From positions 1 to 43,367 of the IMG/VR virus record IMGVR_UViG_3300021475_000033: DNA of 43,367 bases. One strand, 5' to 3'. Every line of letters starts with the position of its first letter. Within the stretch, counting starts at the first letter, position 1. Below the pieces are notes generated by a model, which saw nothing but the letters and a program-made list of their open reading frames with translations, was not told the origin of the DNA and ran no database searches. The translations under genes and the position numbers were made by a program. The DNA comes from a virus. Positions 7,779 to 27,809 of this stretch are shown one piece after another.

Positions 7779-7790
7779 TCGATTTAATCA

Positions 7791-9422: not shown

Positions 9423-9448
9423 GGAGATGACACCAACGGAGAACTTCA

Positions 9449-10694: not shown

Positions 10695-10707
10695 TGGCGG
10701 TGGTGGC

Positions 10708-11004: not shown

Positions 11005-11134
11005 CCCACACATCCCACGTGTCGTCCTCCGGATACGCCTTCTCGGGCCAGAATATGTAAATCGCCGCCGCAGCGATCAGGGCGACGACCAGGGCGACGA
11101 GGCCGAGCCCGGTGATCTCCAATGCCCACACCAT
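10994..11134 (-). CDS. 46-aa membrane protein
   Basis: ATG at 11134 directly follows the preceding stop. The first 28 residues form a TM helix (MVWALEITGLGLVALVVALI then AAAAIYIFW), followed by an acidic tail PEKAYPEDDTWDVWDDY. Coupled start and typical phage microprotein organisation. No family is recognised. Confidence 0.55.
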   Translation of the reverse strand: MVWALEITGLGLVALVVALIAAAAIYIFWPEKAYPEDDTWDVWDDY

Positions 11135-11323
11135 TCACTTCTCCAACCACGCCTCTGGCGGAATGGGTGTGTCGAGAGGGATTTCCTCGCCCTCGGCTCC
11201 CTTGGGCCACGCGCGCTCGAGGACGGCGCACAGCCGATCGCGCTCCGCTAAGTCGTCCACCAGCAGCGCGTTGAAGGCAGCCTTCAGCACGTCGCCCACG
11301 GTGATGGTGGTGGCTTCTGTCAC
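11135..11323 (-). CDS. Hypothetical small protein (62 aa)
   Basis: The GTG at 11323 overlaps the oxygenase stop (GTGA). It is preferred to the GTG at 11332 because this overlap pattern recurs throughout the block. The protein is helical, with TITVGDVLKAAFNALLVDDL, and has a proline-rich end. The function is unknown. Confidence 0.6.
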   Translation of the reverse strand: MTEATTITVGDVLKAAFNALLVDDLAERDRLCAVLERAWPKGAEGEEIPLDTPIPPEAWLEK

Positions 11324-11871: not shown

Positions 11872-11872
11872 T

Positions 11873-12112
11873 TCAATTGCTCCAAAAATACCGTGGGGCC
11901 AGCATACGCAGTTCTTCCTCTTTGGTCACCTTCAGTGTCAGGAGATGGGTGCACATGAAGCGCGGGCCGTCGCAGGCGTCGCACCATCCACACTGGAAGT
12001 GTCCGGGGAGTCCCGCGTGTGGGCACTCGCATCGCTCGAGGTCATCATTGATGGGTTCGCGGCCGAGGGCAGCGATAAACTTCTCTCGCATGGTGGGCTT
12101 CTCAATGGACAT
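11873..12112 (-). CDS. Cys-rich small protein (79 aa)
   Basis: The ATG at 12112 has AGAGAGG upstream, so it is chosen over 12181. The product MSIEKPTMREKFIAALGREP continues with C-x-C, HAGLPGH, C-x2-C-x2-C and a final C, enough ligands for one or two zinc ions. Similar small proteins with the HAGLPGHxxCGWC pattern occur in phages. The function is unknown. Confidence 0.6.
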   Translation of the reverse strand: MSIEKPTMREKFIAALGREPINDDLERCECPHAGLPGHFQCGWCDACDGPRFMCTHLLTLKVTKEEELRMLAPRYFWSN

Positions 12113-12198
12113 GCGTATGACCTCTCTTCGAAACAGCACCCGCAGCACTTGCGCGATGCCCGGCAGCAGATGAAGCGGCAAGCAGCGAACTCATTCAT
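11938..12198 (-). CDS. Candidate Cys-rich overlapping gene (86 aa)
   Basis: ATG at 12198 overlaps the upstream stop (ATGA). The first 30 residues have seven Cys (ACRFICCRASRKCCGCC) and a strongly G/C third-codon bias, as real genes here do. From residue 30 it overlaps the 11873-12112 gene in another frame, so its true extent is doubtful. The alternative frame from 12194 (30 aa) has poorer codon bias. Confidence 0.3.
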   Translation of the reverse strand: MNEFAACRFICCRASRKCCGCCFEERSYACPLRSPPCERSLSLPSAANPSMMTSSDASAHTRDSPDTSSVDGATPATARASCAPIS

Positions 12199-12539
12199 GA
12201 TCTCACCAGGATCGGCGTCGGCTTGAATACTATCGACACCACCATGTCATGTCCAACCTCGGCCTCGGCCCAGGTGCTCCAGCGCCATTGCTGCTGACCC
12301 TCGAATTCGATGAAGGACATGGTCTCGTAGAGCATGGGTGGCCCGAGCCCAAAGTGGTGGTCGAGTCCGAGGAAGACGGTGGAGACCCACACGTCGCCCT
12401 GCTCAGTCAGTTTGACCTGGCGGCGATCGTGATCAGTGAACATCCACATCGACCACTTCTGGAAGTCCGTCTCGAGCACTGGGTTATGTTCGGCGTCGAG
12501 GATGTAGGTGTGGCAGTGTGGGAAGTGAGGGTGAGTCAC
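12195..12539 (-). CDS. Conserved phage hypothetical protein (114 aa)
   Basis: The GTG at 12539 overlaps the preceding TGA and is preferred to the GTG at 12548. The beta-rich sequence includes WVSTVFLGLDHHFGLGPPML followed by ETMSF. This is a pattern I recognise from small phage proteins with a 'W-x-STVFLGLDH' core. The C-terminus reads EVGHDMVVSIV. The function is unknown. Confidence 0.65.
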   Translation of the reverse strand: MTHPHFPHCHTYILDAEHNPVLETDFQKWSMWMFTDHDRRQVKLTEQGDVWVSTVFLGLDHHFGLGPPMLYETMSFIEFEGQQQWRWSTWAEAEVGHDMVVSIVFKPTPILVRS

Positions 12540-12721
12540 AGTTTGCACACCCCGGGCCGCGCCCAGTAGGGCGACATGAAGGTGATCGCCGCCATGTGGC
12601 TCTGGTTGGGAAAGTCTCGAGCCGAGAGTTCATGCCACTTGGGCTCAGGCCTGATCTTGACCAGCAGGACAACCAGTCGGTCGGGCCACCAGCGCCAGAC
12701 GAAGTTGTTCCACTTCTTCAT
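12536..12721 (-). CDS. Small basic Trp-rich protein (61 aa)
   Basis: ATG at 12721 is coupled to the upstream stop (ATGA) and preferred to 12838. It begins MKKWNNFVWRWWPDRLVVLL and ends with a basic tail. The hydrophobic part could be a short membrane-associated helix or a strand. No family is recognised. Confidence 0.55.
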   Translation of the reverse strand: MKKWNNFVWRWWPDRLVVLLVKIRPEPKWHELSARDFPNQSHMAAITFMSPYWARPGVCKL

Positions 12722-12981
12722 CGCTTGTTCCAATGCGCCGCCAGGTCGGCGAGCTGCATCTCGGTCGGTCGTCTCATCAGCACCGGCTTGCCCTGCTTCT
12801 CCGACAGAGCGATCTGAACGGCGGTGCACTCCAAGCACCAGATGTCATCAGTGATGGGCGGCGATGAGAGCGCCACCCACACTGATGATGAGCAGAGGGA
12901 GCACGCCCCATGCTTGCTCGGCACCGGAGCCGGCTTGCCAGCAACCTTGCGTAGGCAGACCAACGGGTTCACATCACGCAC
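12718..12981 (-). CDS. Zinc-binding small protein (87 aa)
   Basis: Has C-x2-C (ACSLCSS) and a second C-x2-C (WCLECTA) spaced by about 20 residues, the layout of a treble-clef or ribbon zinc site, followed by a helix and an HWNKR end. It overlaps the upstream gene by 8 nt. Probably nucleic-acid or protein binding; the target is unknown. Confidence 0.6.
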   Translation of the reverse strand: MRDVNPLVCLRKVAGKPAPVPSKHGACSLCSSSVWVALSSPPITDDIWCLECTAVQIALSEKQGKPVLMRRPTEMQLADLAAHWNKR

Positions 12982-13492
12982 TCTTCTTCGCCGACGCCTC
13001 GCGGACGTTCTCGCGGGCGATGGGCATCACGGGGTCCGTCAATCGCCAAGCGCCAATGCCCGTCTGCCTGACCACACCATGCTCCTTGAGCTGCTGGAGT
13101 CTCGAGCTGATGGAGTTCTCCGAGAAGCCGGCTGCCTTGAGGAGCGGCTGCAGGTCGACCGCCCTGTGCACTGCGCCGTCGCTGAGCGCGGTGATAATGA
13201 TGCCGTTGATCCCACGCTTGAGATCGACGCCGCGTCGCCTCTGCTGCTTGGCTGGCTGCTTGGGCTTTAGTTGCTTCGGCATCAAGCTATCTTGACCCAG
13301 ATGCTTGATCTGAGCCTTGAGGTTGTGCGTTGGTAGATGCTCGGTGTCCTTGAAGCCGCCCAGCGGGTGGCCGTGGCCGCGGTCGGGCTCAAACACTTCT
13401 TCGACGTGGAGGTCGTCGATGGGCAGCACCTTGGACATCATAGAGAACAATGTCTCTGCGGAGATGGTGAAACCGAGCCTGAATTTAACCAT
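12974..13492 (-). CDS. Winged-helix-like regulator (172 aa)
   Basis: The C-terminal 90 residues read KRGINGIIITALSDGAVHRA, then LLKAAGFSENSISSRLQQLK and GVVRQTGIGAWRL, a winged helix with a beta-hairpin wing. A paralogue with the same layout lies at 17338-17673. The N-terminal 90 residues are unrelated and basic near the linker (KPKQPAKQQRRR). It directly follows the XRE regulator, overlapping it by 8 nt, so both are probably co-expressed. A transcription or replication regulator is inferred. Confidence 0.65.
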   Translation of the reverse strand: MVKFRLGFTISAETLFSMMSKVLPIDDLHVEEVFEPDRGHGHPLGGFKDTEHLPTHNLKAQIKHLGQDSLMPKQLKPKQPAKQQRRRGVDLKRGINGIIITALSDGAVHRAVDLQPLLKAAGFSENSISSRLQQLKEHGVVRQTGIGAWRLTDPVMPIARENVREASAKKSA

Positions 13493-13841
13493 GTTTCTTC
13501 CCCTTCACATACTTGGCCATCTGGACGACGTGGCGAGTCGAGGTAGCGGCTCGCTGCTGCTTGATGGGCAGGGGCATGGGTGGCATAAATTTGACGATCG
13601 CCGCGCCCGTGGGCACTGGGGCCAGCTTATAGCCCAGCGCGCGGAGGACGGCGTTGATGGTGGCTGCTTGTGGTTTCTTCGTCTTACCTCCGAACCAGGC
13701 ATAGAGCGTCGTCACGGTGACGCCGCTTTCATCTTCAATCCACTTGTAGCTCGCCCCGCTGGCGCCGACGATGGTCCGGATCTCATCGATGATGGGATCC
13801 TTGTCGACGAAGGAATAAGATTTATAGGTAAACCCCGGCAA
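13485..13841 (-). CDS. XRE-family HTH regulator (118 aa)
   Basis: TTG start at 13841 with AGGAGG five nt upstream. Residues 20-75 form a five-helix XRE domain: IIDEIRTIVGASGASYKWIE, then ESGVTVTTLYAWFGGKTKKP and INAVLRALGY. The C-terminal tail is basic (MAKYVKGKKHG). It lies directly downstream of a promoter flanked by inverted 25-bp operators (13878-13963). An autoregulatory repressor of the leftward block is the natural reading. Without an integrase in view I do not call it a prophage repressor. Confidence 0.75.
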   Translation of the reverse strand: MPGFTYKSYSFVDKDPIIDEIRTIVGASGASYKWIEDESGVTVTTLYAWFGGKTKKPQAATINAVLRALGYKLAPVPTGAAIVKFMPPMPLPIKQQRAATSTRHVVQMAKYVKGKKHG

Positions 13842-13877
13842 TGACTCCTCCTGTTGCTGTGAGCGTCGTCAGCCGCT

Positions 13878-13963
13878 CATAGACGGCGTACGACGGCGAT
13901 TACACCTTAAACTGAGGGGATACGCCAGGCAACCGTATAATCGCCGCGTGCGAGCGTCTAATG
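13878..13963. repeat. Inverted-operator element 1 (about 86 bp)
   Basis: Two 25-26-bp sites in opposite orientation: site A on + at 13878-13902 (CATAGACGGCG...CGGCGATTA) and site B on - at 13963-13938 (TTAGACGCTCG...CGGCGATTA). Their centres are about 61 bp apart. They flank the leftward promoter. Related elements occur at 32192-32275 and, more diverged, at 32479-32565. Confidence 0.6.
13904..13932 (-). promoter_or_regulatory. Leftward promoter TTGCCT-17-TAAGGT
   Basis: On the minus strand, TTGCCT (13932-13927) and TAAGGT (13909-13904) are 17 nt apart. It has the same TAAG-type -10 as the promoters at 5280, 9417 and 18266. It lies between two inverted operator sites and 63 nt before the TTG of the XRE gene. 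Confidence 0.55.
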
Positions 13964-13977
13964 GCGTCGGCGCAACT

Positions 13978-14250
13978 TCATTCTTTGACGGGTATCTCAC
14001 GGGTCTTGCGCTCCATGTCAGCCAGGTCGAGCGCGGGCCGGTGCGAACCCCTGGCGATGGCCGTCGGCCGCACCGCTTGGGCCAGCTCGATGATGGTATC
14101 CCAGTGCTGGCCGTCGCCCGACACGGTGCGGGCGATGCAGGTGGCCATCTGGTCGAGCGCTTCCTTGGATGCGCCGCTGAGTTCATCCCAACCCGAGCCA
14201 GAGCGGATCTGATACTTGAGGGCTTGAGCGATGTCGGCAAACTGTGTCAA
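13978..14250 (-). CDS. Conserved small phage protein (90 aa)
   Basis: TTG at 14250 overlaps the upstream TGA (TTGA) and has AAGGA eight nt before it. The longer frame from 14373 shadows the zinc-finger gene. The sequence TQFADIAQALKYQIRSGSGW then SKEALDQMATCIARTVSGDG resembles small phage proteins with an 'ALxxIAxKIARIVSGDPxHxDxW' core. The function is unknown. It ends right beside operator B of the XRE promoter region. Confidence 0.6.
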   Translation of the reverse strand: MTQFADIAQALKYQIRSGSGWDELSGASKEALDQMATCIARTVSGDGQHWDTIIELAQAVRPTAIARGSHRPALDLADMERKTREIPVKE

Positions 14251-14465
14251 TGATCCAATCCTTCGTATTTCCACGGGTTGTCCTTCATGTCTTTGTTGAT
14301 GGCTTCGTAGCAGATGTCGCAGATTAAGCTTGTGTCCTTGTCGATGGGCTGGCCCGGGAAGTCCCGGTTCCACTCTTCCGCTGCCTCTTCGTCGGACCAG
14401 CCCTTCTCATACACCTTGTGGCATCCGGCGCAGCGGTATTCATTCTTCTTCAAGCGTCGTTTCAA
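14247..14465 (-). CDS. Zinc-finger phage protein (72 aa)
   Basis: Contains YRCAGCHKVYEKGWSDEEA and ICDICYEAINKD, a C-x2-C...C-x2-C zinc site with an acidic helix between. This small family, with the W/F-SDEEAxxE signature, is widespread in phages of actinobacteria and proteobacteria and has no known role. It is ATGA-coupled upstream. Confidence 0.7.
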   Translation of the reverse strand: MKRRLKKNEYRCAGCHKVYEKGWSDEEAAEEWNRDFPGQPIDKDTSLICDICYEAINKDMKDNPWKYEGLDH

Positions 14466-14734
14466 TTGAGCCTCTTCTTGCGATATCCGCTGCTCAACGC
14501 TTGGACAAGGTCATGCCCAGCCAGCGCGCCGCGCTCGGCGTCGGTGAGCTGGCGGAACTGCAGCTGGGCGTCGAAGGCTTGGATATGCCCACACTTAACG
14601 CAAATGGCGATGCTGCCGGGGTTCGGTTGGGATGCGTTGCCGACGCCGGTGGCCGCGTCGAACACTGCGCCGCACTCGAGGCATGTCGCCGGCTGCTGCC
14701 GCGTCGTCGGCCCGATGATGACTTGCTTCTTCAT
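14462..14734 (-). CDS. Zinc-ribbon protein (90 aa)
   Basis: The ATG at 14734 overlaps the preceding stop. The motifs TCLECGAVF and ICVKCGHIQAF form a two-knuckle zinc ribbon, followed by LTDAERGALAGHDLVQAL, a helix seen in related phage ribbons. It probably binds nucleic acid or a protein partner. Confidence 0.65.
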   Translation of the reverse strand: MKKQVIIGPTTRQQPATCLECGAVFDAATGVGNASQPNPGSIAICVKCGHIQAFDAQLQFRQLTDAERGALAGHDLVQALSSGYRKKRLN

Positions 14735-14979
14735 CGCCAGCACTCATCGTTGAAGAAAGCCACAGCCTCGGCGACGTTGTTGCAGTACTTGCACATGGGC
14801 ACCTTGATACACAGGCACAGGAAGTCGGGAACAGTGACCTCATTGAAGAACATCATGGCATCTTCGATCGACCACGCGATGCCCACGGGAATGCGGAACT
14901 CGCTCGGCGGCGCTGAAGTCATGGTGATGACCGGGTCGGGCCTCAGGCTCGAGCGGATGGCCGCGTGCATCTCTTTCAT
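14731..14979 (-). CDS. Hypothetical protein (82 aa)
   Basis: ATG at 14979, coupled (ATGA), is chosen over 15096. The sequence has a central hydrophobic helix (WSIEDAMMFFNEVTV), a Cys-rich segment FLCLCIKVPMCKYCNN and a final DECWR. A zinc or disulfide site is possible. The family is unknown. Confidence 0.6.
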   Translation of the reverse strand: MKEMHAAIRSSLRPDPVITMTSAPPSEFRIPVGIAWSIEDAMMFFNEVTVPDFLCLCIKVPMCKYCNNVAEAVAFFNDECWR

Positions 14980-15167
14980 TTGAACTCCCGGCCGCACTCG
15001 CAGAAGATGCGGTGAGTCTTGAGGCCGAAATGGCTGTAGACCCGCCAGATGCGGTGACCTTTGCGGAAGGGAAAGGTGTGCTTGAACGCGCGCCACCGCG
15101 CCCGGAGCATCAGTCGATAGGGCGCATTGCGCGTGTTGATAGGGATGAAGTTAAGGGGTGAGTTCAT
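14976..15167 (-). CDS. Small basic protein (63 aa)
   Basis: The ATG at 15167 overlaps the upstream stop. It is highly basic and aromatic (YRLMLRARWRAFKHTFPFRK) and ends with a C-E-C-G-REFK motif. RNA or DNA binding is plausible from charge alone. No family is recognised. Confidence 0.55.
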   Translation of the reverse strand: MNSPLNFIPINTRNAPYRLMLRARWRAFKHTFPFRKGHRIWRVYSHFGLKTHRIFCECGREFK

Positions 15168-15391
15168 CGGAACAGGTCTCCCTGCGCTTGTTCGACAATC
15201 CACTTCTGCACTGCCTTGGCTGCGGCGATGTATTCTGTGGATGGCGTCTTAGACTTTTCCTGGCCCGGGACATAGGTTTGCCAGATGCGTTTGCGCAGAT
15301 GTGCGGGCAAGCGATACCAGTGCTCCTTGCATCCCCACAAGCGCGGTGGCACGACGCGCTCGCAGCCGGGCCAGTGGCAATGATGCGTCAT
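15164..15391 (-). CDS. Conserved Cys/His phage protein (75 aa)
   Basis: The ATG at 15391 overlaps the next upstream stop. The sequence HHCHWPGCERVVPPRLWGCK followed by HWYRLPAHLRKRIWQTY and YIAAAKAVQKW matches a very widespread small phage protein of unknown function. It has a C-x-x-x-x-C...C-x2-H zinc knuckle and an RLPxxLRxRIW helix. The family match is from memory of the pattern. Confidence 0.75.
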   Translation of the reverse strand: MTHHCHWPGCERVVPPRLWGCKEHWYRLPAHLRKRIWQTYVPGQEKSKTPSTEYIAAAKAVQKWIVEQAQGDLFR

Positions 15392-15618
15392 TCTCTGTGA
15401 CCCTTGATCGCCATCGCCTGCTTGACGAGCAGAGAGGCGAAGGCCAGCGCCTCTTCCGGCGGCAGACCGAGCCACTCGAGCGGCTTGCCGAAGTCGACCC
15501 TGACCACACCATTGTAGACGGAGATAGCGAGCATCAGTCCGCCCTCATCGTCGGCGTCCAGCTTGCCCTTGGGGAAGTCTCCAGTCGGGCCGATGGGTGG
15601 TTTGTTGTCATTGCTCAT
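15388..15618 (-). CDS. Hypothetical small protein (76 aa)
   Basis: ATG start, overlapping the preceding gene by 11 nt. The sequence GGLMLAISVYNGVVRVDFGK then PLEWLGLPPEEALAFASLLV is a compact alpha/beta unit I have seen in phage genomes beside the 15164-type protein. The function is unknown. Confidence 0.65.
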   Translation of the reverse strand: MSNDNKPPIGPTGDFPKGKLDADDEGGLMLAISVYNGVVRVDFGKPLEWLGLPPEEALAFASLLVKQAMAIKGHRE

Positions 15619-15793
15619 CGATCACCTCGAGTTCAATCAGCCAGCGGCGCACGCGGGCGCGCTCGTCAAGGTCTGGGATGTTGGCCACCCACTGACAGGG
15701 CCAGCAGCGCTCGCGCACGTGCCCGAGGGCGTCGTAGACAGCGGCCTGGCAATCCCGGCAGATGAATGTGGGTGTGGGCTCAGGGGTAAGCAA
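15608..15793 (-). CDS. Zinc-binding small protein (61 aa)
   Basis: TTG start at 15793 with GGAAGG upstream on the minus strand. It contains FICRDCQAAVYDAL and RCWPCQWVANI (C-x2-C twice) and a C-terminal helix RVRRWLIELEVIDEQ. The start codon abuts a GC-rich hairpin (15794-15834) that holds the ribosome site in its loop. Confidence 0.6.
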   Translation of the reverse strand: MLTPEPTPTFICRDCQAAVYDALGHVRERCWPCQWVANIPDLDERARVRRWLIELEVIDEQ

Positions 15794-15834
15794 GGGGCGG
15801 GCCTTCCAAAGGGGGGCTCGAGTTGACCCGCCCC
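15794..15834. other. GC hairpin at a TTG start
   Basis: GGGGCGGG at 15794-15801 and CCCGCCCC at 15827-15834 form a perfect 8-bp stem in the 119-nt gap. On the minus strand the GGAAGG ribosome site is in the loop, and the TTG start of the 15608 gene is the next codon after the stem. It may modulate translation or separate it from the upstream tail-collar gene. Confidence 0.45.
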
Positions 15835-15912
15835 CGCCTCTCCGCTTCGTCTCGAGGGGGGGTTTCCTCGGACGCCGTCGACGGGAGTCGAGCGGAACGC
15901 GGAAAGCTCATG

Positions 15913-16272
15913 TTATCCAAATGCTCCTGTGAACACGATCATTCCGATCGGCCCGTTCTCGGGCTTGACATTGACCGCATGACCGAGCATGCGCTCGCCC
16001 AGGAAGGGCATCGGCTCCATGTTGGGCAGACGGAAGGTGTCCACACCATCACCGCCCCAGGTTGTGCCCATGAGAGCGAAGAGCTCGGGGAAGTCTTCCT
16101 TGCGCGCCAGCGCGCCGTTGCACTTCAGCAAGCCGTCATGGTAGAGCAGCAAGCCGTCGCTGGCGATGAGCGGAGGCCACGGCCGACGCGGCATGATCAT
16201 CAGCGACTGGATCTTGACGATCGCCGGTGCAGCGACCAGTCCGACTAAGAGATTGCGGCGCGATAGTTTCAT
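15913..16272 (-). CDS. Tat-signal protein with phage tail-collar domain (119 aa)
   Basis: The ATG at 16272 is coupled by ATGA. The N-terminus MKLSRRNLLVGLVAAPAIVK fits a twin-arginine signal (S-R-R-x-L-L, hydrophobic core). The remainder has the tail-collar (PF07484-like) core: LLLYHDGLLKCNGALARKED followed by FPELFALMGTTWGGDGVDTF and RLPNM. So a short exported collar domain is encoded among accessory genes, about 20 kb from the tail genes. Export of a receptor-like collar module to block superinfection is a speculation; a small virion protein is the alternative. Confidence 0.75.
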   Translation of the reverse strand: MKLSRRNLLVGLVAAPAIVKIQSLMIMPRRPWPPLIASDGLLLYHDGLLKCNGALARKEDFPELFALMGTTWGGDGVDTFRLPNMEPMPFLGERMLGHAVNVKPENGPIGMIVFTGAFG

Positions 16273-16469
16273 CCATAAAGCTCCACCCATGACCGGGCCA
16301 AGTCGATAACCACATCGTGATAGCTGTCATCACCCAGTTTATCATGAGCAGATATCTCAGTCAAAATTCGCCGCGCTGTCTGCAAGGCCAGTCTTTCTCT
16401 GAGGTTCCAGCCGAGGGCGACTACCGTTCGGTCCTGGTCGTCTTGATACTCTCCGCCGGGCCCTTCCAT
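16269..16469 (-). CDS. Hypothetical small protein (66 aa)
   Basis: Helical, charged protein with WNLRERLALQTARRILTEI and SYHDVVIDLARSWVELYG. ATGA-coupled to the Tat-collar gene and separated by no gap from the upstream gene. No family is recognised. Confidence 0.6.
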   Translation of the reverse strand: MEGPGGEYQDDQDRTVVALGWNLRERLALQTARRILTEISAHDKLGDDSYHDVVIDLARSWVELYG

Positions 16470-16724
16470 TCATCTCTCCTCCAGGTCGCTGTCGCTGAAG
16501 ATGTGGAGCATGCCGGCGAAGTCCGGGTGATCGGCCTCGACCACGTAGCGCACCTCGCCCTTGAGGGTATAAAAAATACTGACGATGACGCCAGGATATT
16601 TATACCCCTTGATCTTGCGCACTCGCTGGAGCATTGTGTGATGAGCGATGGTCGAGCGCGGAGCTTCACTTCTCAATCCGCCCTTCTTGTACTGGGGCGG
16701 AATCATTCTCACGGGTTTGTTCAT
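16470..16724 (-). CDS. Conserved small phage protein, GYxxPGVIVSIF type (84 aa)
   Basis: The ATG at 16724 is supported by AGAGGTGG upstream, although this overlaps the alpha-CTD-like gene by 59 nt. An internal ATG at 16634 lacks a ribosome site. The core KIKGYKYPGVIVSIFYTLKG followed by EVRYVVEADHPDFAGMLHIF is a beta-barrel-like small protein common in phages of GC-rich bacteria, of unknown role. Confidence 0.65.
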   Translation of the reverse strand: MNKPVRMIPPQYKKGGLRSEAPRSTIAHHTMLQRVRKIKGYKYPGVIVSIFYTLKGEVRYVVEADHPDFAGMLHIFSDSDLEER

Positions 16725-17052
16725 CACACCACCTCTTAATGCTGACTCTCACGTCATGCAGCGACTTGACCCCGAACTCCGGCAGGCGCATCAATTCCTC
16801 GTCAGTCATTTCCATCGCTTGGCGAATAGTCAGGATGTCAAAAGCCTTCAGGACCCTGAGCGCGCGCGAGCTGAGCCAGAGATCGTCGATCGGGCTATCG
16901 CGAGCGTCGTCGGGCGGCGGCGGCAGGAGCAACTTGTTCGCCAACCCGCGCAACCAATCTCGAGCATAACTCATCCGCCCGCCATGCGCCGGCCCAGGCT
17001 CCAGACTGTCGGCGATGGAGCGCAGAACAGCGGCGATCTCCTCGTTGGTCAT
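16666..17052 (-). CDS. Protein with RNA polymerase alpha-CTD-like domain (128 aa)
   Basis: The C-terminal half reads SPIDDLWLSSRALRVLKAFD, then ILTIRQAMEMTDEELMRLPE and FGVKSLHDVRVSIKRW. This matches the helix-hairpin-helix alpha-CTD of bacterial RpoA (P-x-D-D-L-x-L...R...LK...E/D-E-L-x-x-x-P-x-x-G-x-KSL). Compared by eye with E. coli RpoA, the DNA-contact residues R265, G296, K298 and S299 have identical counterparts; N268 is Arg here. The N-terminal 60 residues are an unrelated helical segment. It could bind UP-element-like DNA or compete for alpha-CTD partners such as activators. It shares its end with the next gene (59-nt overlap). Confidence 0.75.
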   Translation of the reverse strand: MTNEEIAAVLRSIADSLEPGPAHGGRMSYARDWLRGLANKLLLPPPPDDARDSPIDDLWLSSRALRVLKAFDILTIRQAMEMTDEELMRLPEFGVKSLHDVRVSIKRWCDEQTRENDSAPVQEGRIEK

Positions 17053-17285
17053 TTCTCCTTGCCCGGCTCGGGCACCTCCGCTGCCTCGGCCTCAGCCATC
17101 GTCGTGAAGGGCTGATCCCACCATGCGGTGATGCCCCAGTCGCCCTGCGGCCACGCGCCATGCGACCACTCTTCAATACCATCCCACTCAGCCGGCGGAT
17201 GATCGGGCCCTTCGTCGGCGGTGCGCCACACCACATACCATCCGTCTATCGTCGGATCTTCATCATCGATGTACTTCCACACCAT
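17049..17285 (-). CDS. Small acidic Trp-rich protein (78 aa)
   Basis: ATG at 17285 has GAGGAG seven nt upstream and is chosen over the Arg-rich extension to 17369. The sequence MVWKYIDDEDPTIDGWYVVW then WSHGAWPQGDWGITAWW is Trp- and Asp-rich. It is likely a small beta-protein. The function is unknown. Confidence 0.6.
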   Translation of the reverse strand: MVWKYIDDEDPTIDGWYVVWRTADEGPDHPPAEWDGIEEWSHGAWPQGDWGITAWWDQPFTTMAEAEAAEVPEPGKEK

Positions 17286-17300
17286 CCAGCATCTCCTCGG

Positions 17301-17329
17301 TCGCCCGGCGGCGTTAAACCACCGGGCGA
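17301..17329. other. Hairpin TCGCCCGG/CCGGGCGA
   Basis: A perfect 8-bp stem with a 13-nt loop (17301-17308 with 17322-17329) lies in the short gap between the genes ending at 17338 and starting at 17285 on the minus strand. No T-run follows, so it may attenuate or protect transcripts. Confidence 0.4.
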
Positions 17330-17337
17330 GTTTATTG

Positions 17338-17673
17338 CTATTTCGTCTTCTTCTTCTGGTACGATCCATCGCTGTTGTGCAAGATCTTATTGCGCCGGGC
17401 GAGGTTGCGCAGCGTCACCCGGGTCGAGGTCTCGGCGTAGCCGCCCGCCTTGAGGTTCTTGGTGACCTCTTTTGGCCAGTGCGGCTTTCCATCAGCCAGC
17501 GTGTCCATGATGATGCCATTGATCCCCGACTCGAGATCCATCTGGCGGCGGTTGGAGTATTCAGAGAACTCCGCCACCGCTTCGTCGGATGTAATCCGCT
17601 CAGTGACTACTGGCGAGGGGTTCGACCCATCTTCATCGGCCGTGAATGAATACTTTACTCTTACTGCAGGCAT
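17338..17673 (-). CDS. Winged-helix-like protein, paralogue of the 12974 gene (111 aa)
   Basis: GGAGGAA precedes the ATG. The region LESGINGIIMDTLADGKPHW then KNLKAGGYAETSTRVTLRNL and ILHNSDGSYQKK aligns along its length with the winged helix of the 12974-13492 protein (GINGII, D/A-GA/K, LKA-G-G/A). It is the first gene after a strong leftward promoter. A DNA-binding regulator is inferred. Confidence 0.65.
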   Translation of the reverse strand: MPAVRVKYSFTADEDGSNPSPVVTERITSDEAVAEFSEYSNRRQMDLESGINGIIMDTLADGKPHWPKEVTKNLKAGGYAETSTRVTLRNLARRNKILHNSDGSYQKKKTK

Positions 17674-17706
17674 GTTGCTTCCTCCAATGGTTTTACAACA
17701 TACATA

Positions 17707-17735
17707 TATTTATATACTTCGGCCGTATCTGTCAA
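17707..17735 (-). promoter_or_regulatory. Strong leftward promoter with consensus TTGACA
   Basis: On the minus strand TTGACA (17735-17730) is followed after 17 nt by TAAATA (17712-17707), inside an AT-rich run TATATAAATATATG that offers alternative -10 hexamers at 15 and 19 nt. It drives the 17338 gene and those beyond it. Confidence 0.6.
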
Positions 17736-17742
17736 ATCCGTT

Positions 17743-18003
17743 TTAGTCATTGCCCGACCACACCTCCTTGGGCACGTGCGCCGCTCGGTCGAGAACTTCC
17801 ATCACATCCTGACGGCGCACCGGTATCTCCGAGATCCTCTTGACATGGCTTGCGGAGGGCAGGGCGTCTCTGCAGATGGCGATCGCCTCGTCGCGGGTGT
17901 ACTCGCCAGCGCCGAGCAATCCGCTCGCGTAGCCCCGTCTGTCGGGCGCCCACCAGCCGTTGTGCTCATTGCTCCAGATGAAGTAGACGTCGTTGAGGGT
18001 CAA
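17743..18003 (-). CDS. Conserved small phage protein, WSNEHNGWW type (86 aa)
   Basis: TTG at 18003 overlaps the preceding TGA (TTGA) with AAGGAG upstream. The frame to 18072 would shadow the upstream gene. The core NDVYFIWSNEHNGWWAPDRR then GAGEYTRDEAIAICRDA is a compact motif family found in many phages and in some bacterial genomes (Y-x-x-WSNEHxxWWxP...A-G-x-Y-x-x-x-EA). The role is unknown. Confidence 0.65.
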   Translation of the reverse strand: MTLNDVYFIWSNEHNGWWAPDRRGYASGLLGAGEYTRDEAIAICRDALPSASHVKRISEIPVRRQDVMEVLDRAAHVPKEVWSGND

Positions 18004-18215
18004 ATGCCATTCTCCTTGGCGATGAGGTCGATCAGTTCGGCCAGCTTGAGCAATCCTCGAGGCAAGTTCCACTCCTTGCGCTCGACCATGCTGGCCAGGA
18101 AGCCTTGCATGTCGTACGAGATCTGCTCCTTGGCCTCCGTGATCGACATGGCGTTGAACCGGGCCTGCGCAGCGACGCAGCCGGCGTTGACGGTTTTCTG
18201 CTCGAGCTTTGCCAT
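18000..18215 (-). CDS. Hypothetical helical protein (71 aa)
   Basis: ATG with AGGGGG upstream. It is all-helical: AQARFNAMSITEAKEQISYD then LPRGLLKLAELIDLIAKENG. It is the first gene of the leftward string and is divergent from the 18313 gene. The role is unknown. Confidence 0.6.
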   Translation of the reverse strand: MAKLEQKTVNAGCVAAQARFNAMSITEAKEQISYDMQGFLASMVERKEWNLPRGLLKLAELIDLIAKENGI

Positions 18216-18243
18216 ATGGGTATTACCCCCTATGCGTTAACGG

Positions 18244-21861: not shown

Positions 21862-22686
21862 ATGGCAATCATAATTGAGGGTATGGATGCTACCGGAAAG
21901 TCGACCCTAGCCAAAGCGGTCGCGTCACACTTTAACCTGAAGATAAAAGAGTCCGAAGGCCCACCCGTATCCCGCGACGAATTGCATCATCGGGTCACCC
22001 GTTACAACAACATGGTCGACACGCTCTTTGTCCGTCACCCGTGTGTGAGCCACAACATCTATAATATATGCCACACGGTGCCATTCACTTTGGATGTTGG
22101 CGATTTCTACCACCATGGCCATACATTCATCTATTGTGCGCCGACGAACCTCCATCATATAGCCAAGCCCGGTGAAGATGAGACATTCATAGCTGAAGTC
22201 GGTCTCGCCAGCGACCAGATCAGACGAATGTACAATATGTGGGCCATCCAGCATGCCCATATCATTTACCACCTGGGCGACGACCCGCAGCGCATCATCG
22301 ACATGCTCCAGCCGTCACGACCAGATTTGGTCAGAGACATCAGGGATTTCCACACTCGCTTCGACATCGCGTACGACGGCCCGCCGCGGCACCTCCCCTT
22401 GGATCTCTACGACTTCCGGGAGAAGTTCTTGACAGAAGAGGCGTTCGAATACACCACCGCGCCCACACTGGCTAAACGCTTCGACGCCCTGGTCGACTCC
22501 GTGTACGTCGCCATCGGTTCTGCCCATCTGCACGGTTTCGATTTCTATGAGGGCTGGCGTCGCGTCCACAGCGCAAACATGCTCAAGGTCCGAGCCGCTT
22601 TCGCCAGCGACTCCCTGCGCAATTCTACCCATGATGTGGTCAAGCCGCCCGGCTGGTCGCCACCCGATCTGGAGGATCTCTGTTAA
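21862..22686 (+). CDS. Nucleotide kinase fused to MazG-like pyrophosphohydrolase (274 aa)
   Basis: ATG at 21862 (MAIIIEGMDATGKSTLAKAV) is preferred to a GTG at 21793 that sits at the inferred transcription start. Residues 1-150 form a P-loop kinase of the thymidylate/deoxynucleoside monophosphate kinase type (Walker A in EGMDATGKST; HIIYHLGDDPQRII). Residues 155-262 carry an all-alpha NTP-PPase (MazG/PRA-PH) pattern: DIRDFHTRFDIAYDGPP, FREKFLTEEAFEY (ExxE), DALVDSVYVAIGSAHLHGFD and VHSANMLKVRA. One domain phosphorylates dNMPs and the other would hydrolyse (d)NTPs to monophosphates, so the fusion could exchange one nucleotide for another in the pool. Confidence 0.8.
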   Translation: MAIIIEGMDATGKSTLAKAVASHFNLKIKESEGPPVSRDELHHRVTRYNNMVDTLFVRHPCVSHNIYNICHTVPFTLDVGDFYHHGHTFIYCAPTNLHHIAKPGEDETFIAEVGLASDQIRRMYNMWAIQHAHIIYHLGDDPQRIIDMLQPSRPDLVRDIRDFHTRFDIAYDGPPRHLPLDLYDFREKFLTEEAFEYTTAPTLAKRFDALVDSVYVAIGSAHLHGFDFYEGWRRVHSANMLKVRAAFASDSLRNSTHDVVKPPGWSPPDLEDLC

Positions 22687-22688
22687 CC

Positions 22689-23519
22689 GTGAAAAATGAA
22701 TGGCTGCACCACTCCGTTCGTCTCAGCTGCATCGAAGCAGACTTCTACGCGGGCGAGCGTAAGATCCTGCGCCAGCGCAAGATTACTTTCACCGACACCA
22801 CCTCAGACATCACTCTGACCGATGGCGGGTACCTCAACGGCACCAAGATGTCGTTGCTGAAGAAGAATTACTGGAACGTCGAGTCACACGCTGCAGCTCT
22901 CAGCTTATGGTCACATCGCCGGGAGATGGCCAAGTACGGCTCGGTGTCCTTCATCCTCGACGAAGACCCAGCCACGGACACGCCAGAGTTCATCGATTTC
23001 TCGGTGTCATTCAACACCTTCAACCATGTCATCAAGGGCTCGCGCGTGCTCAATGGGCAGATCCCAGAAGATCGCGGCATCGGCTCGGTGTTCGGCCCGT
23101 GCATTCAGTCGGTCGTTCTCACTTGGCTGTCGCCCGACACCACCGCAGTCGATGTGTTCTGGCGCACCACAGAGTGGTTCCGCAAGTTCCCGGCCGATCT
23201 CATTCTGATCCTCGATCACCTGCTGCCGCCATTCCAGTTGCAGAAGTTTGACATCACTTGTCACTTCGCTAATATCACCGTGCATCCGATGACGTTCATC
23301 TCTCTCATCCCGAGCCTACCCGATCCAGTCGCCTCACTCAATCTCATCAAAGTCAAGGACCCGTACTTCCATGGCAGAGTTGTCAAGCGCCTGGCCCGCA
23401 CACTGTCCGATACCCCCTCACGCTTTGGCCCGGAGAAACGCATCCGCCGCAGCACTGGACGCCGCATGCCCGACACCGCATGGCTCAAGAAATACATCGC
23501 CGAGAACAGGAAAACATGA
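22689..23519 (+). CDS. Thymidylate-synthase-superfamily-like protein, copy 1 (276 aa)
   Basis: GTG start three nt after the preceding stop. The second half has a layout I align by eye with thymidylate synthase: a P-C pair (GPCIQSVVL, C138) where the nucleophile lies, then 21 residues later R159 in VFWRTTEWFRKFPADLILIL. Asp170 stands where TS has the Asn that selects dUMP, and FANITVHP may be the nucleotide-binding end. The next gene is a clearer TS homologue with the same spacing. The N-terminal 120 residues are unassigned. It may be a dUMP/dCMP-modifying enzyme or a non-catalytic partner. Confidence 0.5.
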   Translation: MKNEWLHHSVRLSCIEADFYAGERKILRQRKITFTDTTSDITLTDGGYLNGTKMSLLKKNYWNVESHAAALSLWSHRREMAKYGSVSFILDEDPATDTPEFIDFSVSFNTFNHVIKGSRVLNGQIPEDRGIGSVFGPCIQSVVLTWLSPDTTAVDVFWRTTEWFRKFPADLILILDHLLPPFQLQKFDITCHFANITVHPMTFISLIPSLPDPVASLNLIKVKDPYFHGRVVKRLARTLSDTPSRFGPEKRIRRSTGRRMPDTAWLKKYIAENRKT

Positions 23520-24268
23520 AAGCATATTGGAATTTTACGCAAGCGATTAAATCAATCACTGAGGGCTTCGACACCTCACCCAAGATCAAGACCGAGACGT
23601 GGCAAGGGCTATCCACCGCCAACCGCCCTGAGCTGGCCACTCTCGAGCAACTCTTCGTGTCATTCTCAGTCCCGATCCCGCCCACCCTCGAGCGGCTCCG
23701 CCACGATATCCACCCAGACTTGCCCTGGGCCGACGATCACTTCGCCGAGCGCGTCAGCGGCATACCGCACAATCCGCCGCCCTCGGAAGCCTGGTGGCCG
23801 CACGCCGCCAGCAACCACCCGTTCAAGAATGAGAACGGCTTGTTCTCCCACACCTATCCGGAGCGCATGTGGCCGCGCGAAGCCGGCGCCCGCCCCTTCG
23901 GCATCCGCTTCCGCTACGGCGACCTCGATGACTTGGTGCGCCTGCTCCAGCAACAGCCGCTCACGCGCCAGGCTTACCTGCCCATATTCTTTCCCGAGGA
24001 CACCGGCGCGCACCATGGCCAGCGCATCCCGTGCACTCTGGGCTACCACTTCATCCGGCGCAACGACAAGCTCCATGTCGTCTATTACATCCGCTCGTGC
24101 GACTTCTATCGCCACTTCCGCAACGACATGTATTTGACATGCCGCCTTCTGCTCTGGGTGCTCGAACAGACCCAAGCGGAGAATTGCACTCCCGGGAACT
24201 TCGTCATGCACATTACCTCACTGCATCTCTTCGTCAACGACGCGAGGGAGGCGCTCAAGATAAAGTGA
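23516..24268 (+). CDS. Thymidylate synthase / pyrimidine hydroxymethylase-like protein, copy 2 (250 aa)
   Basis: ATG at 23516 overlaps the upstream stop. TS features in order: R-Q-A-Y-L-P-I-F near 151-158, the catalytic motif RIPCTLGYHF (C173), R193-S-C-D196 in YYIRSCDFYRHFRNDMYL, and GNFVMHITSLHLFVND near 227-242 as the nucleotide-binding GDxHxY equivalent. The residue aligned with the dUMP-selecting Asn is Asp204, as in T4 dCMP hydroxymethylase. This suggests dCMP use, but the alignment is by eye. Methylation or hydroxymethylation of a pyrimidine monophosphate with a folate cofactor is predicted. Confidence 0.75.
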   Translation: MKAYWNFTQAIKSITEGFDTSPKIKTETWQGLSTANRPELATLEQLFVSFSVPIPPTLERLRHDIHPDLPWADDHFAERVSGIPHNPPPSEAWWPHAASNHPFKNENGLFSHTYPERMWPREAGARPFGIRFRYGDLDDLVRLLQQQPLTRQAYLPIFFPEDTGAHHGQRIPCTLGYHFIRRNDKLHVVYYIRSCDFYRHFRNDMYLTCRLLLWVLEQTQAENCTPGNFVMHITSLHLFVNDAREALKIK

Positions 24269-24669
24269 AGGTCCCGCTGGGCGCTCAATCCGTCCCCGTA
24301 CTCGATCCCGATTGGGATGACATGAACCCCTTGCCCATGCTTACGCCGGGCGAGCGCGCCGGGTACGGCCGTCGCTGGTATGGCGGGTTGGGCGTTCCCG
24401 ACGGATGGGATGCTTGCGGCCGCCTCAAGGAGGGCCACACCTGGAGCACCTGGTACACCCGTCTGTCGCCATGTCGATACAAGAAATTCAAAGCCCAGGC
24501 GATACGCACTCAGCCGCCCGCGGAATGGATAAATTACACCTACAAGCGCCCACCGCCCACGCCCGCGCCACCGGCCGATTGGCGGCATACGGAGACTGAG
24601 CTGACGTGGCCCAGCGTCGACACCGAGGTGCAATATTACACCGATGACTGGCAGAGGATAGAGAAATGA
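24265..24669 (+). CDS. Hypothetical protein (134 aa)
   Basis: GTG at 24265 overlaps the TS stop (GTGA); the frame from 24031 shadows the TS gene. The protein is Pro-, Trp- and Tyr-rich, with PMLTPGERAGYGRRWYGGLG, YKRPPPTPAPPADW and a DDWQRIEK end. No domain is recognised. Its place between nucleotide genes suggests, but does not show, a linked role. Confidence 0.6.
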   Translation: MKVPLGAQSVPVLDPDWDDMNPLPMLTPGERAGYGRRWYGGLGVPDGWDACGRLKEGHTWSTWYTRLSPCRYKKFKAQAIRTQPPAEWINYTYKRPPPTPAPPADWRHTETELTWPSVDTEVQYYTDDWQRIEK

Positions 24670-24824
24670 GCATGGAGGAAATCTGCCGCCACGAGCGCTG
24701 CAACATGGCGATCCGCCACACCCTTGGTTACGGCCAGCACGACGATCACGTGTGGCGGTGGCTCAACTATCACCTGCGCCTCTGGGGCGAGGCGCACCCA
24801 TTCCGCTTCGAGGTCAACCAATGA
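24666..24824 (+). CDS. Small protein (52 aa)
   Basis: ATG at 24666 (ATGA overlap) opens MSMEEICRHERCNMAIRHTL followed by GYGQHDDHVWRWLNYHLRLW and a short tail. The end overlaps the deaminase ATG. The C-x4-C and several His could bind metal. It is coupled on both sides. The family is unknown. Confidence 0.55.
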   Translation: MSMEEICRHERCNMAIRHTLGYGQHDDHVWRWLNYHLRLWGEAHPFRFEVNQ

Positions 24825-25297
24825 ACCGCATCTCCAGACTCCAGATGTTCATGGAGATGGCCCACGTCGTCGCCAAGCGCAGCACCTGCATGCGCCTCAG
24901 TGTGGGTTGCATCCTGGTGACCGACAAGAACATCCTCTCAATCGGATATAATGGCCCGCCAGCTGGCGAAGAGCATTGCACTGGGCGTCACTGCTCACCG
25001 CCGGGCAGCGGCTGCGTGCGCGCCGTCCACGCCGAAATAAACGCCTTCGAGAAAATCCGCCTGCGCATGTTGGATAACCCGCTCGCGCCACCGCCCATGG
25101 ATGTCTACGTGACTGACAGCCCATGCCCCCTCTGCTTCGATCTGATAACCCAGCCGCAGTGGAATGTGGCCAACATCTACTTCACCACGCTCTACCGCAT
25201 CAACAAGCACCTCGAGCACCCCGCCATCAACATCTACCAAGTCACGCCGTCAGGCTACGTCGTCGATTGCCAATCCGGGGAGCTCGTGAATGGCTGA
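24821..25297 (+). CDS. dCMP deaminase (158 aa)
   Basis: ATG at 24821 is coupled by overlap. The zinc-dependent cytidine/dCMP deaminase signature is complete: H70-A-E72 in VRAVHAEINAF and P101-C102-PL-C105 in DSPCPLCFDLI. An extra Cys/His group (HCTGRHCSPPGSGC) recalls the second zinc site of T4-type dCMP deaminases. It converts dCMP (or a modified dCMP) to dUMP, feeding TS. Together with the adjacent TS-like and kinase-MazG genes it forms a nucleotide pathway. Confidence 0.9.
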   Translation: MNRISRLQMFMEMAHVVAKRSTCMRLSVGCILVTDKNILSIGYNGPPAGEEHCTGRHCSPPGSGCVRAVHAEINAFEKIRLRMLDNPLAPPPMDVYVTDSPCPLCFDLITQPQWNVANIYFTTLYRINKHLEHPAINIYQVTPSGYVVDCQSGELVNG

Positions 25298-27809
25298 ACT
25301 CAGGGACCCAGACTGCACGCGCTGCGCGCTCCACAAGACGGCTCAGTTCGTGTGCCTGATCGACAAAGGCATCAAGCGCTCCGACATCATGATACTCGGC
25401 GAAGCGCCGGGCAAGCGCGAGGATGACACGGGCCGGCCGTTCGTCGGGCGCAGCGGGCAATACCTCCGGCGCGTCTTAGAAGAACACAAGGTCGAGGGGT
25501 TCATCGGCAACGCGGTCAACTGCCGGCCGCCCGACAACAGAGCGCCCACGACGCCTGAGATCGCCGCATGCCGCTATTGGCTCGACAAGCAGTTATCTGT
25601 CGTCAAGCCAAAGTTCGTCCTCCTGCTGGGCAATGTGGCCCTTGAGGCAGCCCTTAAGACCAAGGGCATCGTCAAGCTCCGCGGCAAGCCGATCGTCAAG
25701 GATGACATCACTTACTTCCCGACATTCCACCCAAGTTATGTGTTGAGAAATGAGTGGGAGCAATCTACATTCGATAGCGATGTCGCTGCTTTCGCCCGCC
25801 TGATTAAGTCTGTGCCCACCCCCTCCATAACCAATCCGGTTCTGGTCGACTCCGAACCCGCATTCCGGCGCATGCTCACCCGGCTGCGCGGCACTATCTC
25901 ATTCGACATCGAGACAACCGGCTTGTACCCGTGGAAGGGCGAGATCGTCGTCCTCGGCTTTGGCACCCGCCGCGAGCAATTCATCGTGCCGATGCCCATC
26001 CCAGATGACTGGATGGAAGACCTCGACGACGTCATCCAAGACTGTGACCTGGTCACTCAGTTCGGCAAGTTCGACAGCCTGTGGCTGCGGGTCAAGCACA
26101 ACATCAGGTGGAAGTCGTCATTCGATATCGGCCTGTGTCACTACCTGATCGACGAGAACGCCCCGCACGACCTCGAGTATATCGCACATCGCTTTCTCGG
26201 CGCAGAGCCTTGGGATGTGCCATTGCGCGTCAAGCAGGGCAAAGAAGGCATCCCAGCCCTCATCGAATACTTCGCAAAAGACCTGCATTACACGCGCGCT
26301 CTCAAGCCAGTTCTCACTGAAAAGCTCGAGCCATGCCTCGCGAGGATCTTCCACCATATCATGATGCCCTGTGTGGATTTATTCACTGAGGTCGAGTTCG
26401 ACGGATGCTTCATCAACACCAGCAAGTTCGACGAGGCCGAGGAATACCTGAGGGGCGAGGTCGCCGCCGCGCTCAAGACGCTCAAGAAATGGCAGCCGCC
26501 CGACACATTCAAGGGCAAGCGAGTCATCAAGCGAATACCCTTCAACTGGGGGTCCACCAAGCAAGTGGGCCATCTGTTGTTCACCACTCTCAAGATACCC
26601 GTCGTCGAGCGGACCAAGAAAGGCGCAGCGAGCGTCAACGAGTCGGTGCTCAAGCGCATCGACCACCCGCTCGTCGCATCACTGCTCAAACTGCGTGGCG
26701 CGCAGCAGCAGCTGTCCTTCTTCATCGACGGGTGGAAACCCTTCCTGGTCGACGGTGTCTGGCTACACCCGTCATTCAAGCTGCACGGCACGGTCACCGG
26801 CCGGCTGAGCGCCGAGCACCCCAATTTGCAGCAGGTGCCGCGTGACCCGCGCATTCGCCAACTGATCGACGCGCCCGAGGGCTGGGAACTGATCGAGGCC
26901 GATCTCAGCCAGATAGAGTTGCGTATCGCCTGCGAACTCGCGCGTGAGCGGCAGATGATGTACGCCTTTCACCACGACATCGACATCCACTGGCTGACCT
27001 TGCTCAATGAACTGTCGCGCACCATGGCGTTCCCCGAGCTCATCACCGGCACCGCCCACGCCCTCACCGGTCTCAAGCTCAACTATTACGACTCGGTCAA
27101 GGCGCTTCTCAAAGCCGGACCCGACGCGGCCATCGAAGTCAACTTTGTGTGGAAGGAGCGGCGCAAGAAAGCCAAGGCGATCAACTTCGGTTATCTCTAT
27201 GGCATGTGGTGGAAGAAATTCCGCATTTACGCTCGGGACAACTACGATGTCACTCTGACCGAGAAGGAAGCCCAGGACAGTCGCAAAGCCTTCTTCTCAT
27301 CTTACCCCGACATCGAGCCATGGCACCGGCGGCAGCAGAACTTCGCGAGGCGCAACGGCTATGTCATGTCGCTGAGCGGGCGCAAGCGCCATTTACCCGA
27401 CGCTCTCGATCCCTACGACACACCCGCCCGCGCTGAAGCCCTGCGCCAAGCCATCAACTCGCCCGTGCAATCCTTCGCCAATGAACTGAACCTGATGGCA
27501 GCCCTGCAGCTCCGATCTGAGTACCCGCGCTCAATCGTCCGCATCTGCGGCACCGTGCACGACTCCATCCTCGCTCGGGTCAAAAAAGAGCACGTCGTCG
27601 AAGTCGGAAAACGGTTGCTGGAAATCATGCGCCATCCTAAACTATTAGACACACTGGGCATCAAACTGAGCGTGCCCGTCGAAGCTGAATTGAAGGTAGG
27701 CCCATGGTCATTGGGCGTTAGTCTGGAGAAGTACATCAAGAGGCAAAATGAAGATCAACCAGTCCCGCGTAAAACTGTGGCGTCGATGCCGCGCCGCGTA
27801 CGGGTTTAA
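25290..27809 (+). CDS. Uracil-DNA glycosylase / DNA polymerase A fusion (839 aa)
   Basis: Residues 1-190 are a family-4-type UDG: C9-x2-C12, GEAPGKREDDTGRPFVGRSG (from about 36), NCRPPDNRAPTTPEIAAC (two more Cys for a 4Fe-4S cluster) and FHPSYVLR near 145. The 3'-5' exonuclease has FDIETTGL (about 205), TQFGKFDSLWL and DLHYTRAL. The polymerase has motif A ADLSQIELR (about 535), motif B KAKAINFGYLYGM (about 630) and motif C GTVHDSILARV (about 756). It is a replicative polymerase with an attached glycosylase, all catalytic motifs apparently intact. It overlaps the deaminase gene by 8 nt and the nuclease gene by 62 nt. Confidence 0.93.
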   Translation: MAELRDPDCTRCALHKTAQFVCLIDKGIKRSDIMILGEAPGKREDDTGRPFVGRSGQYLRRVLEEHKVEGFIGNAVNCRPPDNRAPTTPEIAACRYWLDKQLSVVKPKFVLLLGNVALEAALKTKGIVKLRGKPIVKDDITYFPTFHPSYVLRNEWEQSTFDSDVAAFARLIKSVPTPSITNPVLVDSEPAFRRMLTRLRGTISFDIETTGLYPWKGEIVVLGFGTRREQFIVPMPIPDDWMEDLDDVIQDCDLVTQFGKFDSLWLRVKHNIRWKSSFDIGLCHYLIDENAPHDLEYIAHRFLGAEPWDVPLRVKQGKEGIPALIEYFAKDLHYTRALKPVLTEKLEPCLARIFHHIMMPCVDLFTEVEFDGCFINTSKFDEAEEYLRGEVAAALKTLKKWQPPDTFKGKRVIKRIPFNWGSTKQVGHLLFTTLKIPVVERTKKGAASVNESVLKRIDHPLVASLLKLRGAQQQLSFFIDGWKPFLVDGVWLHPSFKLHGTVTGRLSAEHPNLQQVPRDPRIRQLIDAPEGWELIEADLSQIELRIACELARERQMMYAFHHDIDIHWLTLLNELSRTMAFPELITGTAHALTGLKLNYYDSVKALLKAGPDAAIEVNFVWKERRKKAKAINFGYLYGMWWKKFRIYARDNYDVTLTEKEAQDSRKAFFSSYPDIEPWHRRQQNFARRNGYVMSLSGRKRHLPDALDPYDTPARAEALRQAINSPVQSFANELNLMAALQLRSEYPRSIVRICGTVHDSILARVKKEHVVEVGKRLLEIMRHPKLLDTLGIKLSVPVEAELKVGPWSLGVSLEKYIKRQNEDQPVPRKTVASMPRRVRV

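Follow-up and report, generated by a model that had tools for sequence, protein, structure and literature searches.

What does a virus do with two proteins of the thymidylate synthase (TS) fold, encoded next to each other in a nucleotide-metabolism cassette that reads into its replicative polymerase? The question is raised by IMG/VR record IMGVR_UViG_3300021475_000033, a linear virus of 43,367 bases whose full length is called the window here; a DNA-level search of phage genomes found no close relative of it among phage records. Six plus-strand genes, g1 to g6, occupy positions 21862 to 25297 and read into the PolA gene, with g2 through g6 joined by 4-base overlaps and g6 overlapping the polymerase by 8 bases. 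An earlier note on this DNA had described them as contiguous, coupled genes leading into the polymerase, and the coordinates (exact to the base), the overlaps and the family scans agree. We consider it probable that this cassette replaces genomic cytosine with a C5-modified cytosine that is made at the mononucleotide stage.

The thymidylate synthase homologue g3

The gene g3 (23516–24268, plus strand; ATGA overlap, 250 residues) encodes a cytosine-type TS homologue, predicted to modify C5 of deoxycytidine monophosphate (dCMP). It matches PF00303 (thymidylate synthase; 2e-6, above the Pfam cut-off) and phrog_160 (3e-30), and a fold search gave 5e-12 to 1e-9 against TS, MilA and T4 dCH, the top matches including the cytidine monophosphate (CMP) hydroxymethylase MilA, T4 dCMP hydroxymethylase and the RB69-type hydroxylase. 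The TS fold, the catalytic Cys and the RSxD phosphate motif place g3 in the TS superfamily. Among 123 homologues, C173, R193, S194, D204, H237, R170 and H200 are invariant, and D196 is kept in 122. Asp204 occupies the position of Asn177 in E. coli TS and is Asp in all 123 homologues; this position sets the base, Asn selecting uracil and Asp cytosine, a rule established with T4 gp42 and with engineered TS (PMC6400193, PMC8670742). Directly after the Cys, at the place of TS His147, 108 of the 123 have Thr and 15 have Ser, Thr/Ser being found there in T4 and RB69 gp42 as well; at this position the deoxyuridine monophosphate (dUMP) hydroxymethylases carry Asn and canonical TS carries His, both in combination with Asn177. 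The canonical signature of a thymidine monophosphate (dTMP) synthase, Asn177 together with His147, is not found in g3. These residues make the substrate class well supported: g3 would be a cytosine-type enzyme and not a dTMP synthase, its target being cytosine rather than uracil or thymine because of the Asp at TS position 177. The likeness to SPO1 drawn in the earlier note was therefore wrong as regards substrate.

A maximum-likelihood tree places g3 and its homologues in one clade (96/97), joined by a sister set of two contigs at 100/99, apart from the T4-type, RB69-type and PaMx28-type (Pamexvirus) enzymes and from the dUMP hydroxymethylases. The order of the TS classes in this tree is unsure because the branches between them are long. 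Grouping with ordinary dTMP synthases, which the earlier note had named as grounds for abandoning base modification, was checked for g3 in the same tree, with canonical TS represented by one row, and the result went against it. The sister proteins (L150, 6813–7571; L152, 6831–7535) have Arg at –3 from the Cys, Ser at 147, His at 173 and Tyr at 209, and are likewise paired with g2. Of the related records, 11 of 42 also encode ThyX and one a canonical TS, which argues that g3 is an addition to dTMP synthesis and not its supplier. The window genes scanned include no second dTMP synthase, so that a host enzyme would be used.

The second thymidylate synthase-fold protein g2

The preceding gene, g2 (22689–23519, plus strand; GTG start, 276 residues), matches neither PF00303, the PHROG TS families, NCBIfam nor any other named sequence family; the earlier note had called it a second TS relative by eye. 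This call is now backed by residue correspondence and by an AlphaFold model based on 45 homologues, with a predicted local distance difference test score (pLDDT) of 88 and a predicted template-modelling score (pTM) of 0.85. A fold search of the PDB ranks the phage dCMP hydroxylase 9iqu first (E 7e-5, with a TM of 0.58 on the target); the 18 PDB matches below 1e-3 consist entirely of TS, MilA or dCMP hydroxylase, with DHFR-TS among the matches listed. In the viral structure library BFVD, the top match (1.7e-13) is an unannotated protein of phage PMBT14 whose gene occupies the corresponding place in the gene order; two uncharacterised proteins come next, and TS and dCMP hydroxymethylases after them. 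This PMBT14 homologue has a BFVD model of its own, which supports the TS fold. The assignment rests on models and residues because the template-modelling scores to TS are moderate (0.34–0.58) and the sequence-only evidence is weak. Profile–profile comparison of g2 gave E 6e-4 at a probability of only 30%, smaller subset profiles (A5 and A6) were too shallow to give support against each other or against g3, and a profile search of PDB sequences returned only chance matches (centrins and other proteins). The g2 sequence by itself was too divergent to pick up relatives in a scan of viral contigs; the subset profile A5 did work. A match to PF14457 (Prok-E2_A; E 0.0085), below the Pfam cut-off, was dropped once the model showed a TS fold.

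Most of g2 is highly variable; just four residues, Y61, C138, R159 and D170, stay the same in all of the 52 sequences compared. The spacing from Arg to Asp is 11 in 52 of 52, a value shared by g3 (56 of 56) and TS, and that from Cys to Arg is 19–26 as compared to 20. We equate the four residues with TS Tyr94, Cys146, Arg166 and Asn177 replaced by Asp, the Tyr being the least certain. The folate-binding Asp169 is not kept in g2, where this position varies (E, Y, H), unlike in a folate-dependent TS. Two insertions in the window copy (22941–22994 and about 23046–23063, residues ~85–102 and 120–125) are absent from nearly all homologues and are modelled with low confidence.

In 40 of 41 loci g2 is accompanied by g3, the exception being truncated by the contig end; many g3 loci, chiefly those of large phages, lack g2. 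Thus g2 depends on g3 and not the reverse, and a downstream or partner role would suit it. The protein keeps the Tyr/Cys/Arg/Asp core and not the folate-binding Asp; most likely, it either catalyses a second step, with dCMP or the product of g3 as its substrate, or joins g3 as a catalytic partner subunit. It is possible, if rather doubtful, that g2 is instead a non-catalytic structural or regulatory subunit of a g2–g3 heteromer. The two genes are adjacent and overlapping, g2 is never found without g3 and switches between present and absent just four times over a g3 tree with 120 leaves, and its sequence is mostly variable, all of which would suit such a subunit; yet the four residues that are invariant are catalytic-site positions, including the nucleophilic Cys, many large phages have g3 without g2, and the two genes lie apart in three loci (L005, L007 and L025). 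The g2–g3 distance correlation, once corrected for polymerase distance, is a modest 0.28, the mirror-tree signal being largely gone. An obligate subunit in particular is weakened by the large phages that carry g3 alone. Positions in g3 linked to the presence of g2 were listed, and because group and phylogeny are confounded in them, no interface between the two proteins is claimed.

A more specific scheme, to which we give a small chance, has g2 acting after g3: its Cys would add to C6 of 5-hydroxymethyl-dCMP, an exocyclic methylene would be re-formed, and addition of a new nucleophile would yield a new C5-substituted dCMP, with no separate glycosyl- or carbamoyltransferase. If true, the twin-TS cassette would be a two-step relay to an undescribed DNA base.

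The g2 homologues of phages PMBT14 and Serbin and of Gordonia phages match phrog_13667 or phrog_34294, both families without an assigned function, and in the GenBank records examined none is labelled as a TS-fold protein, save in one Manatee Spring record ('pyrimidine hmase synthase'). The literature searched contained no description of a dCMP-type TS homologue accompanied by a second TS-fold protein that has the catalytic Cys and an Asp selecting cytosine. The novelty lies in g2, a protein with the same fold, the core active-site residues and no database name. Its family, spread over the two PHROGs, gains a fold and likely catalytic residues; if g2 is active, one of the best-studied enzyme families would have a wider chemistry, possibly with a new DNA base.

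Spread and neighbours of the cassette

Homologues of g3 were found in 110 deposited phage records and in 64 (one scan) or 416 (profile scan) viral contigs. The set of g2, g3, deaminase and PolA, usually with a kinase, recurs in dozens of phages, including cultured phages of Pseudomonas, Serratia, Gordonia and Brevundimonas. In Pseudomonas phage PMBT14, Serratia phage Serbin, Gordonia phage PotPie and Brevundimonas phage Strzyga, the order, apart from small insertions, is kinase, pyrophosphohydrolase (or dUTPase), hypothetical protein, 'thymidylate synthase', deaminase, PolA, Cas4-like nuclease and Sak4-like ATPase. The hypothetical protein is g2, at 11–45% identity to the window copy. Where a locus has g2 and its sequence reaches 3.5 kb or more upstream of g3 (50 loci), the deaminase is present in 50 and PolA is nearby in 48, an arrangement far beyond chance; most contigs are fragments, so that absences are soft. 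A large and mostly unstudied group of phages, several of them cultured, very probably has modified cytosine. The compact form that the earlier note took to be unusual is a widespread, conserved cassette in which only the fusion within g1 is occasional. Two g3 homologues (L107 and L112) lie on probably viral contigs that are labelled Lokiarchaeota and Pacearchaeota in metagenome bins.

This fused protein, g1 (21862–22686, plus strand; 274 residues), combines a deoxynucleoside monophosphate (dNMP) kinase of the thymidylate type (phrog_761, 9e-6) with a C-terminal all-alpha nucleoside triphosphate (NTP) pyrophosphohydrolase of the PRA-PH/MazG-like type (PF01503, 5e-7; phrog_671, 2e-16). The metal motif of the latter (EExxE plus ExxD-type) is present, E192, E193, E196, D208 and D212 being invariant in 45 homologues. 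The kinase P-loop is intact; at the DR motif (22030–22035), Val57 replaces the Asp found in 88% of relatives, and kinase activity in this phage may be altered. The two halves are separate proteins in most relatives, fusions being confined to a minority (the window, L006, L007, L018, L120, L145 and L151). At the other end of the cassette, g6 (24821–25297, plus strand; ATGA overlap, 158 residues) is a dCMP deaminase (PF00383, 7e-17; phrog_174, 3e-32). The Pfam and PHROG matches thus uphold the fusion, the TS homologue and the deaminase named in the earlier note. The replicative polymerase (25290–27809, plus strand) joins a family-4 uracil-DNA glycosylase, a 3'-5' exonuclease and PolA (PF03167, 3e-29; PF00476, 7e-68; TIGR00758 above cut-off). 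The glycosylase domain sits at the N-terminus of PolA, and the neighbouring deaminase produces dUMP, which suggests that uracil is kept under surveillance at the replication fork. Between g3 and g6 lie two translationally coupled ORFans: g4 (24265–24669, plus strand; GTGA overlap, 134 residues) has no Pfam, PHROGs or NCBIfam match and no homologue in related loci, and g5 (24666–24824, plus strand; ATGA overlap, 52 residues) matches no named family in the Pfam and PHROGs scans.

Domain-level evidence for modified cytosine comes from MetaGPA, in which DNA that resists enzymatic removal of unmodified cytosine is enriched in PF00303 proteins with Asp177, position 177 separates modified-cytosine from unmodified contigs, and PF00303, PF01503, PF00383 and PF14437 co-occur in the modified contigs (PMC8670742). 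These are the models matched by g3, g1 and g6, an agreement at the level of domains. The gene neighbourhoods of g3 in large phages point to its product. L276 encodes a carbamoyltransferase two genes upstream, and a GT34/FkbM protein 4 bp downstream, of its g3; FkbM and DegT aminotransferase genes lie near g3 in L263, and FkbM and sugar epimerase genes in L316. A phage carbamoyltransferase of the L276 kind acts on 5-hydroxymethyl-deoxycytidine (PMC8670742). Because such neighbours decorate hydroxyls, they argue for a g3 product that bears one; sugar gene clusters of large phages can serve other ends, and we take this context as support, not proof. The large-phage loci that have g3 without g2 among genes for a carbamoyltransferase, GT34/FkbM fusion, FkbM methyltransferases, epimerase, DegT and nucleotidyltransferase (L276, L289, L263, L264 and L316) are candidate routes to new cytosine hypermodifications.

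Elsewhere in the window, most open reading frames scanned in the left arm (1–18240) have no informative family match, the exceptions being a DNA helicase (7846–9354) and a DUF2786/DUF7168 protein (5264–6004). On the minus strand (37271–42665), three successive tail-fibre genes encode proteins whose C-termini belong to one family, phrog_4492, a pattern that resembles duplication of a receptor-binding module.

Proposed product and comparison with known systems

A pathway is proposed in which the pyrophosphohydrolase half of g1 would convert deoxycytidine triphosphate (dCTP), and possibly deoxyuridine triphosphate as well, into the monophosphate, and a share of the dCMP would be deaminated by g6 to dUMP and on to dTMP. 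On the remaining dCMP, Cys173 of g3 would add to C6, Asp204 would protonate N3 and so select cytosine, and the one-carbon unit of methylene-tetrahydrofolate would be placed on C5, most probably giving 5-hydroxymethyl-dCMP. The kinase half of g1 together with host nucleoside diphosphate kinase would raise the product to the triphosphate for incorporation by the adjacent PolA. We give 5-hydroxymethyl-dCMP about an even chance of being the g3 product, the remainder being spread over 5-hydroxy, 5-methyl and other products.

Several observations weigh against this scheme. The hydroxymethylase signature described by Park and colleagues is an Asp or Glu three residues before the Cys (Asp145; PMC6400193); g3 has Arg170 there in 123 of 123 sequences, and so lacks the T4-type signature. 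TS Gly173 is replaced by the invariant His200, also in 123 sequences. In the tree, g3 falls into no characterised clade and is not grouped with gp42, and the best PDB sequence match of its profile is a flavin-dependent dCMP hydroxylase (9iqu/9iqc, E 2.5e-9), not T4 gp42 (T4 dCMP hydroxymethylase, 3.8e-5). The window showed no tailoring enzyme, and none is conserved among the cassette phages: carbamoyltransferase is absent from 47 related records and from the window open reading frames scanned, and a family-1 glycosyltransferase occurs in 2 of 48. The literature searched gave no DNA composition for the cultured carriers. The name 'hydroxymethylase' is therefore likely, not established, for g3, because it has the dCMP-type Asp but Arg where T4 has Asp145.

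The PDB match raises the possibility that g3 is a flavin-dependent dCMP 5-hydroxylase like RB69 gp42, making 5-hydroxy-dCMP by a route documented in Mosigvirus (PMC13390438), with g2 as partner or next step. The two families share PCT and D-x-Y at the active site; they form separate, well-supported clades, however, and the RB69 type has Asn at the folate-site Asp (TS D169) and Glu at –3 where g3 has Asp and Arg, so that we regard this as unlikely. Still less credible to us is a dCMP methylase making 5-methylcytosine, as proposed for XP12-like phages. Asp177 permits dCMP methylation in TS (PMC8670742), and the XP12-related Pamexviruses have a similar set of TS, pyrophosphohydrolase and deaminase and digestion-resistant DNA (PMC9206674), but PaMx28-type enzymes cluster with canonical TS and not with g3, g3 carriers almost all lack the DHFR of Pamexvirus (it turns up in 1 of 48 related records, a weak point against folate-oxidising methylation), and the carbamoyl- and glycosyltransferase neighbours of g3 need a hydroxyl. 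Ordinary salvage, with g3 a degenerate dTMP synthase, virion DNA unmodified and the cassette shifting only the balance of dCTP and thymidine triphosphate, would suit the GenBank labels of the cassette genes (thymidylate kinase, dUTPase, thymidylate synthase, deaminase) and the missing tailoring enzyme. It is hard to square with an invariant pyrimidine-selecting Asp, a separate clade, ThyX or TS in some of the same carriers, and enrichment of the same domain set in experimentally modified-cytosine contigs, and we think it very improbable.

Replacement of genomic cytosine by a C5-modified form thus remains our preferred reading, and known systems resemble it to differing degrees. The dUMP hydroxymethylases of SPO1 (gp29), M6 and ViI share the TS superfamily with g3 and typically have kinase and pyrophosphatase neighbours; they differ in Asn177, Asn147, Asp at –3, clade and a uracil rather than cytosine substrate. 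RB69 (Mosigvirus) gp42, whose sequence agrees with the printed PDB alignment of 9iqu/9iqc, shares with g3 the TS fold, the dCMP-type site, PCT and D-x-Y after the substrate Asp, and its type is the best PDB sequence match of g3 and the best PDB fold match of g2. In contrast to g3, it belongs to another clade, is flavin-bound according to the PDB title, has Asn at the folate Asp, Glu at –3 and Val at 173, and is a single protein with no g2-like partner; g3 departs from the RB69 5-hydroxylase type in its clade and in keeping the folate-site Asp. The MetaGPA network of TS, PRA-PH, dCMP deaminase and carbamoyltransferase (PMC8670742) contains the Pfam set of g3, g1 and g6, and the g3 relative in L276 has its carbamoyltransferase two genes away; the window open reading frames scanned and the 47 related records differ in lacking that enzyme, and g2 is not in the network because it has no Pfam model. 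The T4 pathway (gp42, gp56 dCTPase, gp1 kinase and cd deaminase) has the same set of activities as the cassette. The T4-like route named in the earlier note is thus supported, with a pyrophosphatase for deoxynucleoside triphosphates, a dCMP-specific TS-family enzyme, a dCMP deaminase and a dNMP kinase. T4 gp42 and g3 both have Asp at 177, a Cys nucleophile followed by Thr and a dCMP-type active site. What sets the window apart from T4 is a g3 in its own clade, with Arg for Asp145 and His for Gly173, a PRA-PH-type pyrophosphatase fused to the kinase, and the addition of a second TS-fold protein.

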